In this document: positions 3,846-62,827 of the stretch, one piece after another
Layout: each line of letters opens with the position of its first letter
Position numbering within the stretch: position 1 is the first letter of the stretch
NCBI RefSeq assembly: GCF_005047635.1
Contig: NZ_SUKC01000001.1
Coordinates: 496,001-560,000 of the forward strand
From: Arthrobacter sp. CAU 1506
GTDB lineage: Bacteria > Actinomycetota > Actinomycetes > Actinomycetales > Micrococcaceae
DNA length: 64,000 nucleotides
Direction: 5' to 3'
The notes under the pieces: model-generated
What the model was told of the DNA's origin: nothing
Seen by the model: only the letters and a program-made list of their open reading frames with translations
Database searches by the model: none
Translations under genes and position numbers: made by a program

Positions 3846-3980
3846 GGTCTCCACGCGTTCGCTGGCGCTGTCGGTGGTCGAAGGAGGCGCGCCAGCGCCG
3901 AGTAGAGACCGGTCGACCACCGGAGGTATGGCGCGTGGGGTCTCCACGCGTTCGCTGGCGCTCACTTGGTCGACCGCCGG
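3846..3980. repeat. Dispersed intergenic repeat, TGGTCGACCA type, two copies
   Basis: GGTCTCCACGCGTTCGCTGG occurs at 3846 and again at 3939, and the palindromic part GGTCGACCACCGG at 3911 is echoed by TGGTCGACCGCCGG at 3967-3980. The same words occur at 30203-30302 and 60219-60405. The copies fill the gap between the GerW-like and DoxX-like genes. They look like a REP-type element and encode nothing recognisable. Confidence 0.75.
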
Positions 3981-56846: not shown

Positions 56847-56885
56847 GGCACAAGCGCAGGGACAGGCACAGGCACCAGCTCGGCG

Positions 56886-56917
56886 AAGGGGCCGGAGCCC
56901 GCTGGCTCCGGCCCCTT
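56886..56917 (+). terminator. Intrinsic terminator, 14-bp stem
   Basis: AAGGGGCCGGAGCC (56886-56899), loop CGCT and GGCTCCGGCCCCTT (56904-56917) form a perfect stem directly after the SRPBCC gene. Confidence 0.85.
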
Positions 56918-56918
56918 C

Positions 56919-57140
56919 TCGCGCCGCGTCGGCACGCGATTTCGCCCCCTCCGTCTCACCCCCTCGCGCCGCCACACGCGTCCGGCCGCTTCCCAACCGT
57001 TGCACCCTCCGCCTCGCCCCCTCGCCCCCTCGCGCCGCCACACGAGTCCGGCCGCTTCTCAACCGATGCATCCTCCGCCCCCCTCCTCGCGCCGCCCCAC
57101 ATGCCGCCGGCCGCTTCCCAACCGTGGCGCCCCTTCCGCC
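56919..57140. repeat. Degenerate 45-66 bp tandem repeats, four copies
   Basis: TCGCGCCGC starts copies at 56919, 56964, 57030 and 57087, each followed by CCGGCCGCTTC-CAACCG and CCTCCGCC. Copies differ by indels and substitutions. They fill the gap before the PPOx gene. Confidence 0.75.
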
Positions 57141-57212: not shown

Positions 57213-57701
57213 ATGGCCAACGATGACGAAGGACGCAAGGAAGTCGCCAAGATCCTGAAGGACGCGGACATCGGCGTCCTCACCACGGTCAATGCCAGCG
57301 GCCAGCTGTTCAGCCGCCCGTTGGCGCTGCAGAAAGCCGAGTTCGACGGCGACCTGTGGTTCGTGACGCAGGACCCCTCGCCCAAAGCCGACGAAATACG
57401 CGGCAATCCCCACGTCAATGTCTCGGTCAGCGGATCGGACGGCTACCTGTCCATCTCGGGCACGGCCCAGATCGTCCGCGACCAAGCGAAAATCGACGAC
57501 CTCTGGGGCCCCACGATGGAACCGTGGTTTGAGCACGGCAAGGACGACCCCAAGGTGACGTTGATTCACGTCGAGTCGCACACAGCCGAATACTGGAGGC
57601 CGGACTCCCCCAAGGTAGTCACGCTGTTCAAGCTGGCCAAGGGGATGGTCACCGGCAAGAAAGCTGACGACGTCGGCAAGAACGACGTCGTGGACCTTTA
57701 G
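57213..57701 (+). CDS. Pyridoxamine 5'-phosphate oxidase-fold protein (general stress protein 26 type)
   Basis: A 162-residue split-barrel flavoprotein: DADIGVLTTVNASGQLFSRP starts the family domain and AEYWRPDSPK ends it. Such proteins bind FMN or F420 and act on small stress-related compounds; true pyridoxamine phosphate oxidase residues are not all present. GAAGGTGG precedes the ATG. Confidence 0.88.
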   Translation: MANDDEGRKEVAKILKDADIGVLTTVNASGQLFSRPLALQKAEFDGDLWFVTQDPSPKADEIRGNPHVNVSVSGSDGYLSISGTAQIVRDQAKIDDLWGPTMEPWFEHGKDDPKVTLIHVESHTAEYWRPDSPKVVTLFKLAKGMVTGKKADDVGKNDVVDL

Positions 57702-57788
57702 CGGGTCCGGCGCACGGGACAAGTCTCCTGGCCCCGTGCGCCGGACTCGCTTCATACTGAGGCATCCGCCGATCCCGTCAGGAGGACA

Positions 57789-58232
57789 ATGAACCGCTTG
57801 GGTCGGAGCTTGAAGAGGTTCGCCATGTTGGCCGCTCTCCTGCTGCTCGCGACCGGCTGCAGCAGCGGGCTGGCCGATCCGTTGGGACAGTCCGCCAAGG
57901 AGGCTTCGGCAGCGGTGGGGTCGGCGGCCATGGTGCTGCGGCTGGAAACCGAGGACAAGGCCACTGACGCGCTTTCGGAGACCACCCTCGGGGACATGGT
58001 GGACCAGAGCACGGCGGCTTACCAAAGCGCCGCCGAGCTGACTCCGAAGACCGCCGACGATCTGGCGCTGCAGCAGAACATCCTGCAGACCCTGGACCGG
58101 GCGCTGCGAAGCCTGCACAGCGCCCAGTTGGCGCAGGCGAGCGGGGACGCGTCGGCTGTCCAAGCGGTTGTGGTCAGGTTGCAGGCGCAGGCTGCCGAGC
58201 TGGCAGAACTGGGCAAGGAGCTCAAGCCGTGA
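57789..58232 (+). CDS. Lipoprotein, first gene of the NRAMP operon
   Basis: A 147-residue exported lipoprotein with lipobox LLATGCSSG at 17-25. The mature part is all-helical (ETEDKATDALSETTLGDMVD, LRSLHSAQLAQASGDAS) with a coiled-coil tendency. AGGAGG is close to the ATG and the TGA overlaps the next GTG. No family recognised; a periplasmic-side partner of the transporter is inferred from coupling. Confidence 0.75.
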   Translation: MNRLGRSLKRFAMLAALLLLATGCSSGLADPLGQSAKEASAAVGSAAMVLRLETEDKATDALSETTLGDMVDQSTAAYQSAAELTPKTADDLALQQNILQTLDRALRSLHSAQLAQASGDASAVQAVVVRLQAQAAELAELGKELKP

Positions 58233-59515
58233 GCGGCAAGGGATCCGGCTCACTAGCTGACCAGGCCACCGGCAAGTCGTCCGCCAACCTGAGCATCCTC
58301 GGGGTGGCGCTGGGCATCCTGACCGCCATTGGCGGATTTGTGGACATCGGCGATCTGGTGACCAACGCCGTCGTCGGGTCCCGCTTTGGGCTCAGCCTGG
58401 TCTGGGTGACGGTGTTGGGCGTGGTGGGCATCTGCATTTTCGCGCAGATCTCCGGCCGGGTGGCGGCGGTGAGCGGGCGGGCCACCTTCGAGATCATCCG
58501 CGAGCGATTGGGGCCGCGGGCGTCCCTGCTCAACCTGCTGGCGTCGTTCTTCATTAACCTGATGACGCTCACAGCGGAGGTCGGCGGCGTTGCCTTGGCA
58601 CTGCAACTGGCCAGCAGCGTGCACTACCTGGCGTGGGTGCCGGTGGCCGGTTTTGCCGTCTGGCTGGTGGTGTGGCGAGTGAAGTTCAAGATCCTGGAGA
58701 ACGTGACGGGCCTGCTGGGCCTGACGCTGATTGTGTTCGCGGTGTGCCTGTTCCTGCTGAACCCGGACTGGAACCACTTGTTTAACCAGGCCACGCGGCC
58801 GGCGGTTCCGGAAGGCGAGGCACCGGCCACGTACTGGTACTACGCCGTGGCACTGTTCGGCGCCGCGATGACGCCGTACGAGGTGTTCTTCTTCTCCTCC
58901 GGCGCGGTGGAGGAGAAGTGGACGGTGAAGGACCTGTCGCAGTCCAGGCTGAACGTGCTGGTGGGCTTCCCGCTGGGCGGGTTCTTGTCCGTCGCCATCG
59001 CCGCGTGCGCCGCCGTCGTGCTGTTGCCGGCCGGAATCGGCGTCACCTCGCTGTCCCAGGTGGTGCTGCCGGTGGCCGAGGCTGGCGGCAAACTGGCGCT
59101 GGCGTTCGTGATCGTGGGCGTGCTGGCGGCGACCTTCGGCGCGGCGCTGGAAACCACACTCTCCAGCGGCTATACGCTCTCGCAGTTCTTCGGCTGGTCC
59201 TGGGGAAAGTTCCGGCGTCCGGTCCGCGCGGCGCGGTTCCACCTGGTGATGATCCTGTGCCTGCTGGTGGGCATGGGCGTGCTGGCCACCGGGGTGGACC
59301 CGATCAAAGTCACCGAGTACTCCGTGGTGTTCTCGGCGGTCGCGCTGCCGCTGACCTACATCCCCATCCTGATCGTGGCCAACGACCCCGACTACATGGG
59401 CCGGCATGTCAACGGGCGGCTGCTGAACTTCACCGCCCTCGTCTTCATGGTCATCATCTTGTTGGCCGCCCTTGCCGCCATTCCGCTGATGCTGCTGTCA
59501 GGAGCGGGAGCATGA
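58229..59515 (+). CDS. Divergent NRAMP-family divalent-metal transporter
   Basis: A 428-residue LeuT-fold transporter with eleven predicted helices. Helix 1 has GFVDIGDLVTNAVVGSRFGL where classic NRAMPs have DPGN, and helix 6 has GAAMTPYEVFFFSSG where they have MPH. Both metal-binding motifs are thus altered (DIGD; MTPYE), so Mn2+/Fe2+ selectivity is doubtful and Mg2+ or another ion is possible, as in NRAMP-related magnesium transporters. It starts and ends with 4-bp overlaps, tying it to a lipoprotein and two PRC-like proteins. Confidence 0.82.
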   Translation: MSGKGSGSLADQATGKSSANLSILGVALGILTAIGGFVDIGDLVTNAVVGSRFGLSLVWVTVLGVVGICIFAQISGRVAAVSGRATFEIIRERLGPRASLLNLLASFFINLMTLTAEVGGVALALQLASSVHYLAWVPVAGFAVWLVVWRVKFKILENVTGLLGLTLIVFAVCLFLLNPDWNHLFNQATRPAVPEGEAPATYWYYAVALFGAAMTPYEVFFFSSGAVEEKWTVKDLSQSRLNVLVGFPLGGFLSVAIAACAAVVLLPAGIGVTSLSQVVLPVAEAGGKLALAFVIVGVLAATFGAALETTLSSGYTLSQFFGWSWGKFRRPVRAARFHLVMILCLLVGMGVLATGVDPIKVTEYSVVFSAVALPLTYIPILIVANDPDYMGRHVNGRLLNFTALVFMVIILLAALAAIPLMLLSGAGA

Positions 59516-59886
59516 CTTCGGCCGGCAAGATGTTCGACGCCGTCATGCACCTGCTGGACCGGCAGGTTCTGGACGTGGACAAGATGCCGGTGACCGTGGT
59601 GGACGACGTTGAACTTTCCGACATCCCGTCCGGCCGCATTCCGCCGGGCACTCCCGCGCCGGTGATCACCAACCTGCTGGCCGGCTCGGTGCTGGGTACG
59701 CGCATGTTCGGCGGCCGTCCGCCGTCCTCCCGGCTGAACCGGATCCGCTGGCGGCACGTCGCGGAGTTGGGCACCGCGCTGCGCCTGAACATCCGCGGCG
59801 ATCAACTGGATGTGCTCTGGACCGAACGCTGGGTGCGGAATCGGATCATTGGCCGGATTCCGGGAGGGCGCCATGATCCTGAGTGA
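59512..59886 (+). CDS. PRC-barrel-like small protein 1 of the NRAMP operon
   Basis: A 124-residue soluble protein: AVMHLLDRQVLDVDKMPVTV opens a beta-barrel-like domain resembling PRC barrels, followed by a Pro-rich link and RIRWRHVAELGTALRLNI. The ATG overlaps the transporter stop. It may bind the transporter or RNA/protein partners on the cytosolic side; no function is known to me. Confidence 0.65.
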   Translation: MTSAGKMFDAVMHLLDRQVLDVDKMPVTVVDDVELSDIPSGRIPPGTPAPVITNLLAGSVLGTRMFGGRPPSSRLNRIRWRHVAELGTALRLNIRGDQLDVLWTERWVRNRIIGRIPGGRHDPE

Positions 59887-60211
59887 CCTGCTGACCGCGA
59901 AGGTGTTCGACGACGCCGGCGTCCGGCTGGGTCGGGTGATTGACGGCAGATTCGCGCTGGACGGACGGCCGGAAGCGGAGGCTTCGCTGGCGCAGGCCCG
60001 GCTGGTGGGCCTGTTGGTCAGCCCCCATTCGCGTGGCTCCTACCTGGGCTACGAACGGCGGGACCTCAACGCGCCTTGGCCCATCGCGAAGCTGGAGCGA
60101 TGGCGGCATCGCGGGTCGTTCCTGGTGCTGTGGGAGGACCTGCACAGCATTGACGACGACGGCGTGCACCTCCGTGCGGGATTCACCCGCCACGACATCC
60201 GGCTGGGTTAG
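59873..60211 (+). CDS. PRC-barrel-like small protein 2 of the NRAMP operon
   Basis: A 112-residue protein starting MILSDLLTAKVFDDAGVRLG, the PRC-barrel beginning (motif LxG-x-V-x-D: VRLGRVIDGRFALD). It overlaps the previous gene by 14 bp, so four genes are coupled head to tail. Intergenic repeats follow its stop. Confidence 0.65.
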   Translation: MILSDLLTAKVFDDAGVRLGRVIDGRFALDGRPEAEASLAQARLVGLLVSPHSRGSYLGYERRDLNAPWPIAKLERWRHRGSFLVLWEDLHSIDDDGVHLRAGFTRHDIRLG

Positions 60212-60218
60212 GCCGCCT

Positions 60219-60405
60219 CCGGTGGTCGACCACGCGAGCGCCAGGACCTCCGGTGGTCGACCACGCGAGCATCCGGTGGTCGACCACGCGAGCGCCAGCG
60301 AGCACGCGGAGACCAGATGCGCTCGCGGCGGCATCTCGAGCGGCCGGATCTCCACGCGGCCGCAAGCGGCCTTGGTCGATCGCCGAAGGCCTTGGTCGAT
60401 CACTG
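60219..60405. repeat. Dispersed TGGTCGACCA repeat, inverted orientation
   Basis: CCGGTGGTCGACCACGCGAGC occurs at 60219, 60250 and 60273, and TTGGTCGATC variants at 60372 and 60392. It is the reverse orientation of the element at 3846 and 30203, with the CGCGAGC and GGAGACC words on the other side. Confidence 0.8.
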
Positions 60406-60497
60406 GCGCCACGCGGAGAGTCAGCGCGGATCGCATGTGTGTCGCAGCTACCATTGGTGAAACGAAAACATCAGACGGCTGAAGTGGGGGAACGGGC

Positions 60498-60515
60498 ATG
60501 CCGGCAGCATCATGA
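60498..60515 (+). other. Five-codon upstream ORF before the GGDEF-EAL gene
   Basis: ATG-CCG-GCA-GCA-TCA-TGA reads MPAAS. GGGGGA lies 6 bases before its ATG, while the main ATG at 60512 has no such site within reach; the uORF stop overlaps it as ATGA. Translational coupling is the simplest reading. Confidence 0.5.
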
Positions 60516-62827
60516 CGGCCGCGAAAGCGGCGGCCGCATTGTCGTGGGCTGCTATCGCCGGTATTTCGGCTGCGGGACTGCTGGTACTAGCGCAGGTTGT
60601 TACCGCCTCACTCGTCTCGCCGCCGCGCCTGGGACTGGTGTCGGTTATTTCCGTGCTGGTCCTGGTCCTGGCCTGGCACCTGCGCGTGGATACGCCACTG
60701 ATGCGGCGCCAGACCACCGCGGCGATGACCGCCATGGTCATTGTCTGCAACGACCTCACCGCCCCGCTGCACCACACGGTCGCGGTAGTGGGTGTCGGGC
60801 TGCTCGCCACCCGGGTGGTGTTCCGGCGTTTCCGCTGGGCCGACCTGTACTGGTTCATCAGCCGCCTGCTCGCCGCCGCCATCCTGGTGGCGGTCTTCCA
60901 GAATGCCCAAGCGGCCGGCTTCATCTGGCCGGTCTCCTTGCTGGCTGCTTGGCTGGCCTTCTTCCTCACGGCGATTGCGGTCGAGGGAGCCTTCGCCACG
61001 TCGTCGAAACGGCGCAGCACGTTCCGCAACGGCATCGGCTGGCCGTCGGCGCTCGGCACGCTGGTCATCAACCTTGTACTGTGCGTGGCCGGGCAGCATG
61101 CCGCGCAGCAGTTCCACCGCGACGGCGTCCAGGCGTTCTTCCTGGTCTTCGCTTCTGTCCTGGCGCTGGCGGTCACCGGCTGGCTGCGCAACCGCGACCT
61201 GCGCCGCCGACTCACCGGCTTGGTGGACGCCTCGCTGGAGTTACCGTGGAACCCGGATGGGCTGGACAAGACCCTGCTCGCCGCCGCCAGCGCCTCGGTG
61301 CGCGCTGACAAAGTGGCCCTGCAGTCCGAGGCTCCGATGGACAAGGAGATCGGCGTCCGGATGCGCCGCTGGGACGACGGCGACAAGTACCTGGTGGCCT
61401 CCCGGAACGGCGGGGCCCAGTTCACCGAAGAAGACGAACAGGTCCTCGACGCCCTGGCGCACGTAGGCAGCATCATGGTCCGCCACGATGAGCTGGTGCA
61501 CGAGCTGCGGCTGCAGGCGGACACGGATGCGCTGACCGGGCTGGGAAACCGCCGCACGCTCTGGCACCGGCTGGCCGAGATCAATACCGGCCGCCGCCCC
61601 GGCGAGGCCATCGCCGTCGTCTATCTCGATCTGGACGAGTTCAAGTCCGTCAACGACCAGCACGGCCACGACGTCGGCGACCTGCTGCTGACCGCCACCG
61701 CGCAGCGCATCCGCTCGGAAATCCGTCAGGAGGACGTGGCCGCGCGCATCGGCGGCGATGAATTCGTCGTCGTGCTCCGCGACGTGGGCACCGAGGCGGA
61801 CGCCCGCGCCGCCGCGGAGCGCATTGCGGCCGCGATCGCCCGGCCACTCCCCGCCCGCGGCAGCACGCTGCAGGTCCAGGCCAGCCTCGGCGTGGCCTAC
61901 TCCGGCAGTCCGGCGAAGGACATCGAGGAGTTGCTGCGCAGCGCCGATGCCTGCATGTACGGTGCCAAGCGGCTGCAGCAGCGGCTGCGCGAGTCCGAGC
62001 GCGCGGGGTCCGGTTTCGAAACCAGCCTGGCCGCAGCAGTGGAGCGCGGCATCCGCCGGCACCGACTGCGGGTGGCGCTGCAGCCGATCATTGCACTGGA
62101 TCTGGATGCGATCGTGGGCTTTGAGACGCTGGCGCGCTACGAAGACGAGGAACTGGGCAACATTCCGGCGGACCAGCTGGTGGAGGAGGCGAACCGGCTG
62201 GGCCTGCTCAACGAGCTGACCATCCAGGTGATCGACGGCGCGGCCGCTGCGATGGCCCGGGTATGCGAGATCAGCGACCTCCGCTCCATCTCCGTCAACG
62301 TGGAATTGGGCCAGCTCGTCCCCGGCTCTACCGTGGTGGACCGGCTGCGCCGGATGCGGGCCGAAGGGCCAGACCTGAATATCATCATCGAGCTGACCGA
62401 AAACTCCCTGGACACCATGACCGAGGAGTGCCGGATCATGCTGGCGCAGCTGCGCAGCGAGGGCTTCAGGATCGCCGTGGACGACTTCGGCTCCGGGTAC
62501 TCGTCGATGAACTCGCTGACCGAGTTTGCCTTCGACATCGTCAAGGTGGACCGAGCCCTGGTCAGCGGCGACGATGGCAGCGCCCGGAACATCGTGGTGA
62601 GCCACCTGATCGCCATGTTTACGGCGCTGAAGGCGGATGTGGTGATTGAAGGCATCGAGACGGCGGAGGCCGTGGAGTGGCTGGCCGGCTGCCCGGACCT
62701 GAACGTACAGGGCTTCTACTTCGGCCGTCCCATGTGGCCGGATGAGCTCATCGCCCGCTTGGAAACGTCCGGCAAGGCTGCGCGTCCGGAGTCGGTCAGG
62801 CAGTCCCACCCCGCCATGGTTGACTAA
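60512..62827 (+). CDS. Membrane GGDEF-EAL protein (c-di-GMP turnover)
   Basis: A 771-residue protein. Residues 1-210 hold six or seven helices, then a linker, the GGDEF domain near 400-440 with intact ARIGGDEFVVVL and an RQED I-site exactly five residues before it, and an EAL domain (FETLARYEDE, ELTENSLDTMTEECRIMLAQ, DDFGSGYSSMNSL, EGIETAEAVEWL, QGFYFGRP). All metal-binding residues of both seem present, so both synthesis and hydrolysis of c-di-GMP are possible. Tandem repeats span its stop. Confidence 0.9.
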   Translation: MTAAKAAAALSWAAIAGISAAGLLVLAQVVTASLVSPPRLGLVSVISVLVLVLAWHLRVDTPLMRRQTTAAMTAMVIVCNDLTAPLHHTVAVVGVGLLATRVVFRRFRWADLYWFISRLLAAAILVAVFQNAQAAGFIWPVSLLAAWLAFFLTAIAVEGAFATSSKRRSTFRNGIGWPSALGTLVINLVLCVAGQHAAQQFHRDGVQAFFLVFASVLALAVTGWLRNRDLRRRLTGLVDASLELPWNPDGLDKTLLAAASASVRADKVALQSEAPMDKEIGVRMRRWDDGDKYLVASRNGGAQFTEEDEQVLDALAHVGSIMVRHDELVHELRLQADTDALTGLGNRRTLWHRLAEINTGRRPGEAIAVVYLDLDEFKSVNDQHGHDVGDLLLTATAQRIRSEIRQEDVAARIGGDEFVVVLRDVGTEADARAAAERIAAAIARPLPARGSTLQVQASLGVAYSGSPAKDIEELLRSADACMYGAKRLQQRLRESERAGSGFETSLAAAVERGIRRHRLRVALQPIIALDLDAIVGFETLARYEDEELGNIPADQLVEEANRLGLLNELTIQVIDGAAAAMARVCEISDLRSISVNVELGQLVPGSTVVDRLRRMRAEGPDLNIIIELTENSLDTMTEECRIMLAQLRSEGFRIAVDDFGSGYSSMNSLTEFAFDIVKVDRALVSGDDGSARNIVVSHLIAMFTALKADVVIEGIETAEAVEWLAGCPDLNVQGFYFGRPMWPDELIARLETSGKAARPESVRQSHPAMVD

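Follow-up and report, generated by a model that had tools for sequence, protein, structure and literature searches.

A four-gene cassette of a divergent NRAMP-superfamily carrier, a predicted lipoprotein and two PRC-barrel-type proteins in Arthrobacter sp. CAU 1506 and on proteobacterial plasmids

A compact four-gene cassette was analyzed in a 64,000-nucleotide stretch of the genome of Arthrobacter sp. CAU 1506 (contig NZ_SUKC01000001.1, positions 496,001 to 560,000), referred to here as the window. Four open reading frames (ORFs) on the plus strand at 57789-60211, overlapping by 4, 4 and 14 bp, encode a lipoprotein, an NRAMP-like carrier and two small PRC-barrel-type proteins, g3 and g4. Gene 1 (57789..58232, 147 amino acids) begins with a hydrophobic signal-like stretch and a lipobox with Cys24 at 57858-57860, behind which a four-helix bundle is predicted. 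Gene 2, the carrier (58229..59515, PF01566), has 428 amino acids when read from a GTG that overlaps gene 1 in GTGA. Gene 3 (g3, 59512..59886, 124 amino acids), with a conserved C-terminal helix and an IPGG tail, overlaps gene 2 in ATGA, and gene 4 (g4, 59873..60211, 112 amino acids) shares 14 bp with gene 3 at 59873-59886. An earlier reading of the letters without database searches (the sequence-only reading) had described four genes joined by exactly these junctions, and the ORFs were found where it had placed them. The conserved core of the carrier starts about 20 residues in, and the GTG start retains the 4-bp overlap with gene 1; the N-terminal 20 or so amino acids are an extension missing from four relatives of the first alignment, whose starts were set by the analyst. 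The window copies of genes 1, 3 and 4 gave no Pfam or NCBIfam match above the curated cut-off.

Conservation was analyzed in the window and the best 80 of at least 304 carrier relatives from a contig scan with five carrier queries, a sample that leans to close kin; the titles of the 80 fetched loci read as actinobacterial genera, and two loci (L073 and L075) share one contig. All four genes were found by profile search in 79/81 loci (carrier in 81, homologues of the lipoprotein, g3 and g4 in 80 each), with profiles built partly from the loci searched, and the two incomplete loci (L094 and L096) are contigs ending inside the cassette. With the single proteins of the window as queries, g3 and g4 were in place in 80/81 loci and the lipoprotein in 55/81. 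Such recurrence of one arrangement puts it far beyond chance. The carrier and g3 overlapped by 4 bp in 74 of 75 gene models and g3 and g4 by 14 bp in 70 of 75, counts that lean to these values since the gene-model script preferred starts overlapping the preceding stop. No fifth conserved gene emerged: the commonest coding cluster outside the four was limited to 15/78 loci, where both its strand and its position varied, and minus-strand clusters of 26 and 7 loci over the carrier end and g3/g4 were read as antisense frames and rejected. The median ratio of nonsynonymous to synonymous substitution rates (dN/dS) in disjoint close pairs, excluding pairs with saturated or very low dS, was 0.08 for the carrier (24 pairs), 0.22 for g3 (24 pairs), 0.28 for g4 (24 pairs, maximum 0.58) and 0.29 for the lipoprotein (16 usable pairs, maximum 0.86); each median lies below 0.3, which speaks for all four being real, constrained protein-coding genes. 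The alignment subsets, window included, held 38 of 75 g3, 45 of 75 g4 and 43 of 58 lipoprotein sequences.

Among deeper members of 50-74% identity, nine have an unbroken carrier (L132-L140), and all four genes are present in eight of them; no lipoprotein was detected in the carrier cassette of L139. In L137 (genome G118), g4 and g3 are fused into one ORF in the order g4-g3. Across 396 Actinomycetota genomes, the carrier was found at 50% identity or above in 14, in two pieces in G120 and G193, followed by one 38% fragment and then by values of at most 31% among the matches listed. The g3 profile matched 13 of the 396 genomes, every match lying within about 350 bases of the carrier, in a search limited to no more than 10 scored first-look candidates for each genome. 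The 59 nearest genomes, the own genome included, contain the carrier in six cases, one of them broken. Decayed cassettes (L152 and L153) were seen as well, with only the lipoprotein and part of g4 retained in G008 and a broken carrier in G036. The presence of the cassette in few relatives, together with decayed copies, therefore marks the unit as accessory and patchy.

Carriers of 33-38% identity were found on plasmids of Rhizobium, Mesorhizobium, Caballeronia and Paraburkholderia, and the four-gene order is repeated in six annotated alpha- and betaproteobacterial plasmid copies from Rhizobium, Mesorhizobium and Caballeronia (L155-L157, L159, L161 and L163), in a gene-by-gene reading that leaves out loci L158 and L160. 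When 28 proteins were searched, all six copies matched the g3 profile (expectation value, E, 3e-17 to 4e-22), and four had weak matches to the g4 profile (4e-6 to 1e-4). Of the two without a g4 match, L156 carries a PRC-barrel annotation, which the plasmid records give to three g4 homologues. Three of the six matched the lipoprotein profile (E 8e-11 to 3e-14); the other three were assigned from their position alone, apart from an additional lipobox-like Cys in L156 and L159. A Streptomyces plasmid copy of 62% identity (L154) has the full four-gene set, and a haloarchaeal relative of 25% identity (L162) has no PRC neighbour annotated. In Rhizobium sp. Pop5 (L161), a second gene, annotated as a divalent metal cation transporter, lies at 703-1971 in divergent orientation just upstream of the cassette. 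The gene-neighbourhood check proposed with the sequence-only reading thus found the four genes linked both in Actinomycetota and on plasmids of proteobacteria.

The carrier matches PF01566, the Nramp superfamily, with 198.1 bits (E 2.8e-58) against a curated cut-off of 29.8. In a profile search of solved structures, its closest match was EleNRMT (7qia; E 3.3e-45, 158 bits), and the best canonical NRAMP structure reached E 3.1e-17 and 66 bits. A maximum-likelihood tree of 60 rows placed 29 cassette carriers in one clade (support 100/100), outside the clade of 10 NRMT rows that includes EleNRMT (99/91); 17 canonical NRAMP rows formed a clade of their own (100/99) with no cassette carrier inside. 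The cassette clade grouped with the NRMTs and a small GTTISPY set, not with the canonical NRAMPs (97/90), in a tree that is unrooted, has a long stem, drew a long-branch warning from the program and had 8 rows dropped as long branches, duplicates or near-duplicates. A first tree with no proteobacterial rows gave the cassette-NRMT grouping at 99/91, but its long-branch row L119a broke up the NRMT rows. Identity to canonical-type carriers in the relatives was 25-31%. The comparison with NRAMP and NRMT sets suggested earlier therefore put the carrier inside neither the canonical nor the EleNRMT-containing group, and its assignment as a canonical NRAMP or as an NRMT was rejected on the tree and on the ion-site signature described below. 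A second PF01566 protein of the own genome (L121) is without NRAMP or NRMT site residues and sits on a very long branch, and a PF01566 search of that genome found no MntH with DPGN/MPH.

Ion-site residues were counted in 93 cassette carriers (87 core and 6 proteobacterial) and in 24 comparison rows (10 NRMT-type and 14 canonical). The core consists of 78 motif-selected rows, window included, 8 from deeper genomes and 1 from the Streptomyces plasmid, and leaves out L088, L105 and L115 (motif filter) and L133 and L134; uniformity at DIGD and TPYE is thus partly by selection, and positions 117, 308 and 366 are unfiltered. In the literature, NRAMPs are marked by the signature DxxN-A/CxxM and NRMTs by DxxG-TxxA/T (PMC8806188); the window carrier has DxxD-AxxT. 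In transmembrane helix (TM) 1, DIGD (D39-D42, 58343..58354, alignment columns 39-42) stands where canonical NRAMPs have DPGN, as the sequence-only reading had noticed. Position 39 is Asp in 87/87 core rows and Glu in 6/6 proteobacterial rows; position 42 is Asp in 86/87 core rows, with a single Ser, and varies in the proteobacterial rows between Ser, Glu, Asn (one row) and Gln (one row), Gly being present in 0/93.

The TM6 stretch AAMTPYE (A212-E218, 58862..58882) aligns as A-A-M-T-P-Y with canonical A-T-V-M-P-H, so that Thr215 takes the place of the binding-site Met. The earlier reading of MPH replaced by MTPYE was right about the replacement but wrong in register: the Met is replaced by Thr215, and the Met that was seen, M214, lies one residue earlier. 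Cassette carriers follow A/SxxT/S, with one Ala, and none of the 93 has Thr at 212, Met at 215 or His at 217. The Glu of TPYE, E218, is kept in 87/87 core rows, 78 of them filter-selected on a motif including it, and is not general, being Leu in 6/6 proteobacterial rows. Glu117 in TM3 (58577..58579), aligned with EleNRMT Glu133, is present in 93/93. Glu308 (59150..59152), aligned with EleNRMT Val320 and expected in TM8 from spacing, occurs in 93/93 cassette carriers and in 0/24 NRMT or canonical rows, and the acidic character of positions 39, 117 and 308 is thereby retained in all 93. Position 366, aligned with EleNRMT Gln379 in TM10, is Val, Ile, Leu or Met in 93/93 cassette carriers and Gln in 24/24 NRMT and canonical rows.

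As the sequence-only reading had proposed, g3 is of the PRC type by predicted fold, and g4 is probably so by Pfam PRC matches of its homologues. The AlphaFold2 model of g3 (mean predicted local distance difference test, pLDDT, 79) matched in a Foldseek search of the PDB best to 1pm3 (MTH1859, E 3.9e-4) and to the PRC heterodimer 8onw (CdpB1/CdpB2, E 6.4e-4); by sequence, Pfam PRC matched 1/38 members (E 0.098) and DUF2171 6/38 (best E 0.0098). Pfam PRC was found in 35/45 g4 homologues at E up to 1, the best being 3.4e-6, and the window g4 scored 13.5 bits against PF05239, whose curated cut-off is 21.2.

A counterpart of the two proteins was found beside NRMT-type carriers (28-31% identity), which in six loci (L144-L149) adjoin proteins of 600-643 amino acids. 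By Pfam cut-offs these six long partners contain MgtE_N and CBS in 6/6, PRC in 5/6 and the C-terminal MgtE membrane domain in 3/6. The partner in L151 is shorter, with PRC above and MgtE_N just below the cut-off, L149 has an additional free ORF of 196 amino acids with PRC, and no PRC/MgtE-like partner was detected in L150. In 7/8 NRMT-type loci (L144-L149 and L151, not L150) a neighbour was matched by the g3 and/or g4 profile. Aligned with hhalign, g4 matched the first PRC region of the partner at E 3e-12 and g3 the second at E 2.8e-7 (g3 to the first region, 1.4e-4), the second region being assigned from these profile alignments. A direct search of the ORFs in the first NRMT-type loci with the g3 profile gave no match, and the link came from more NRMT loci and profile-profile alignment. 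Given these alignments and the fused g4-g3 ORF of L137, the pair is read as a tandem-PRC partner that is split in most cassette loci. The earlier statement that the partners have no assigned part in NRAMP transport is therefore less true of the PRC pair than it seemed, as NRMT-type carriers have a PRC-headed partner. An MgtE_N/CBS profile gave two matches in 101 cassette loci (L156 and L116), both CBS only by Pfam, and matched 7/9 NRMT-type controls, six of them loci from which the profile had been made. An MgtE-like gene adjoining NrmT genes, with its role left open, was described by Shin 2014 (PMC4072509), in whose main text, as far as available, no words beginning 'prc' or 'barrel' occur. 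Four of the NRMT-type carriers beside MgtE_N-CBS proteins (L144, L145, L147 and L148) have Gly at the otherwise conserved TM1 Asp (GASG), unlike EleNRMT.

Gene 1 is a lipoprotein by its signal peptide and lipobox Cys, with lipidation predicted, which bears out the name first given to it. Its homologue ends at the carrier start in 80/81 loci and has a lipobox and hydrophobic stretch in 79/80. AlphaFold2 predicted a four-helix bundle with confidence (mean pLDDT 92; helices 29-54, 60-82, 89-118 and 121-145). No significant match to the model was found in the PDB, the best being a designed protein (E 0.065) and all four-helix matches having E >0.06; the weak, non-significant matches include the periplasmic sensor domain 4k0d (E 0.09). 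In the mature sequences, Asp69 is near-invariant (75/79) and position 57 is Arg or Lys in 69/79.

Regulation and flanking DNA were also inspected. Riboswitch control was rejected, as no Rfam family reached the gathering threshold within the window. A Sigma-B/F-type promoter upstream of gene 1, sought by its consensus, was present in 3/58 loci, compared with 0.9 on average and at most 4 in shuffled sequence, and was rejected as not convincing, and no Sigma-70-like promoter was found in 57600-60520. A Pyrid_ox_like gene lies in the window, and DUF3618, holin and nutrient-deprivation genes lie beside the Rhizobium CB3060 copy; a stress-regulon role drawn from such scattered neighbours is unproven. 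Directly behind gene 4, at 60215-60298, a 30-nt unit that includes a GTGGTCGACCAC palindrome occurs three times; these are the only three occurrences of the exact 19-mer GGTGGTCGACCACGCGAGC in the host genome, and the shorter GGTCGACCAC is found also at window positions 3911, 30232, 30257 and 30288. Upstream of the pyridoxamine-oxidase-like gene, a C-rich unit of 66 nt is repeated imperfectly in three copies at 56946-57136 (spacing 66 and 59), and a perfect inverted repeat of 15 bp lies nearby at 56885-56918.

The four genes are tentatively read as a single unit that takes up a hard divalent cation, with the PRC pair gating and the lipoprotein outside, a reading held at a little under even confidence. 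The transport unit supposed in the sequence-only reading, perhaps for Mg2+ or another cation and with cytosolic and periplasmic subunits, is thereby supported in part. Gene 2 would be a LeuT-fold carrier moving the divalent cation inward across the membrane, its ion site rebuilt from oxygen ligands at D/E39 and position 42 (TM1), Glu117 (TM3), Ser/Thr215 (TM6) and Glu308, which should lie in TM8. The PRC barrels of g3 and g4 would pair in the cytosol and bind the inner face of the carrier as a gate or assembly platform. The pair would be a reduced equivalent of the N-terminal PRC regions in the PRC-MgtE_N-CBS protein encoded next to NRMT-type carriers, with the MgtE_N and CBS parts absent. The four-helix bundle of gene 1 would be tethered on the outside; sensing of the ligand, its presentation to the carrier or stabilization of the carrier's outer face are guesses at its role. 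Mg2+ as the substrate is possible but distinctly doubtful, and is favoured because of the kinship with NRMTs and the loss of the Met that disfavours alkaline-earth ions in NRAMPs. Complex formation, gating, the direction of transport and the Mg2+ substrate are what we infer from the loci, the alignments and the predicted folds. A further-reaching version, in which these carriers would be a separate class of the NRAMP superfamily working only as a four-part complex, with a three-carboxylate path (D/E39, E117 and E308 of TM8) that dispenses with the TM10 Gln and an ion or coupling mode new to the superfamily, appears rather unlikely.

Several points weigh against the uptake unit with its gating PRC pair. 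PRC barrels are widespread; a second PRC stretch is reported by Pfam in just 1/6 long NRMT partners (L149), g4 also matches region 2 of the partner (E 5e-9), and g3 and g4 match each other in profile-profile alignment (E 5e-8). The match to the NRMT partner may therefore reflect a shared fold rather than a shared function. No metal-ligand pattern was found in the 79 mature lipoproteins (H 1.0%, M 1.1%, C 1.1%), and gene 1, having no His/Met/Cys-rich site, is unlikely to be a high-affinity metal-binding protein. No M-box riboswitch was found in the window by the Rfam search. The carrier is without the counterparts of EleNRMT Gln379 and Thr224, both important for EleNRMT transport: mutation of Asp55 or Gln379 strongly impaired transport, and detectable Mg2+ transport was gone in T224A (PMC8806188). 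Kinship with the NRMTs fixes neither the ion nor the role of the partner, since an NrmT encoded beside an MgtE-like gene behaved as a carrier of Mn, and Clostridium proteins transported Mg without needing the MgtE-like gene (Shin 2014, PMC4072509).

The rescue of a Mn-transport defect by an NrmT from Acidobacterium capsulatum (PMC4072509) speaks for an importer of Mn2+ (or Fe2+) with an unusual site and with the PRC and lipoprotein genes as accessory parts. Such an importer would fit the PF01566 kinship and the retained TM1 acid and TM3 Glu, the latter contacting Mn2+ directly in BfraNramp (PMC12873925). It is nevertheless unlikely: the canonical binding-site Met, the TM6 His and the TM10 Gln are missing in 93/93 cassette carriers and the TM1 Asn in 92/93, and three genomes with the cassette (G009, G017 and G048) have a second, distant carrier match of 27-29% identity that is possibly an ordinary MntH. 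The loss of the Met can also be read in favour of another hard cation, as changing it in EcoDMT raised Ca2+ permeation (PMC8806188).

The LeuT fold has a cation site between TM1 and TM8. A carrier for Ca2+, or one with a Na+- or H+-coupled step through Glu308 near that site, would account for a residue found in 93/93 cassette carriers and missing in 24/24 relatives; Glu308 is placed in TM8 by spacing, and this proposal is quite improbable. Very unlikely is a sensor ('transceptor') in which the carrier-like protein would transport little and would relay an external signal, received from the lipoprotein, to the PRC pair. The outside four-helix bundle with its weak, non-significant resemblance to 4k0d, the soluble PRC pair inside and the lack of an enzyme in the unit are what such a sensor might look like, but among the four genes constraint is strongest on the carrier, whose acidic positions are invariant, and none of the fold matches of the lipoprotein falls below E 0.06.

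Compared with known systems, the proposed uptake unit lies nearest to the NRMTs, the Nramp-related magnesium transporters with an MgtE-like partner (CabNRMT and EleNRMT), with which it shares the PF01566 fold and the closest solved structure, and whose gene neighbour is headed by PRC regions matching g4 and g3 in this order. It differs from them in the separate clade of its carrier, in DxxD-AxxT versus DxxG-TxxA/T, in the loss of the TM10 Gln and gain of Glu308, and in having two small PRC proteins and a lipoprotein, no MgtE_N-type gene being found in the 101 cassette loci. With canonical NRAMP/MntH (SLC11) the carrier has in common the PF01566 fold, the TM1 acid, the TM3 Glu and an Ala (or Ser) as the first residue of the TM6 site, whereas it lacks the DPGN/MPH ligands, the TM10 Gln and, in TM3, the Asp that precedes the Glu by three residues. 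The cassette carriers are probably one of, or nested in, the uncharacterized 'Nramp-related' groups described by Ray et al. 2026 (PMC12873925); gene neighbours are not mentioned there in the part available. CdpB1/CdpB2 of Archaeoglobus fulgidus (8onw and 8qzo) are likewise two pairing PRC-barrel proteins, with several chains in each entry matched by the g3 model; the entries name no carrier, whereas the g3 and g4 genes are tied to a membrane carrier gene. A literature search, outside which most subscription papers lie, found no paper joining PRC-barrel with NRAMP, MgtE, manganese transport, magnesium transporter, or divalent metal and lipoprotein. Within that partial scope, the four-gene unit, its spread to Proteobacteria, the correspondence between the PRC pair and the NRMT partner, and the change at Glu308 and at the position of the TM10 Gln (Gln366) were not found in the literature consulted.

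Those NRAMP-family carriers named here that have been characterized so far were studied as single proteins. The cassette presents a clade with a rewired ion site that is tied to three partners in both Actinomycetota and Pseudomonadota, and it makes testable the role of the MgtE-like/PRC partner of the NRMTs as well as the evolution of ion choice in the NRAMP superfamily. Expression and testing of the whole unit are feasible, since the cassette is compact and self-contained and occurs in named strains of the Arthrobacter type and on plasmids of Rhizobium.

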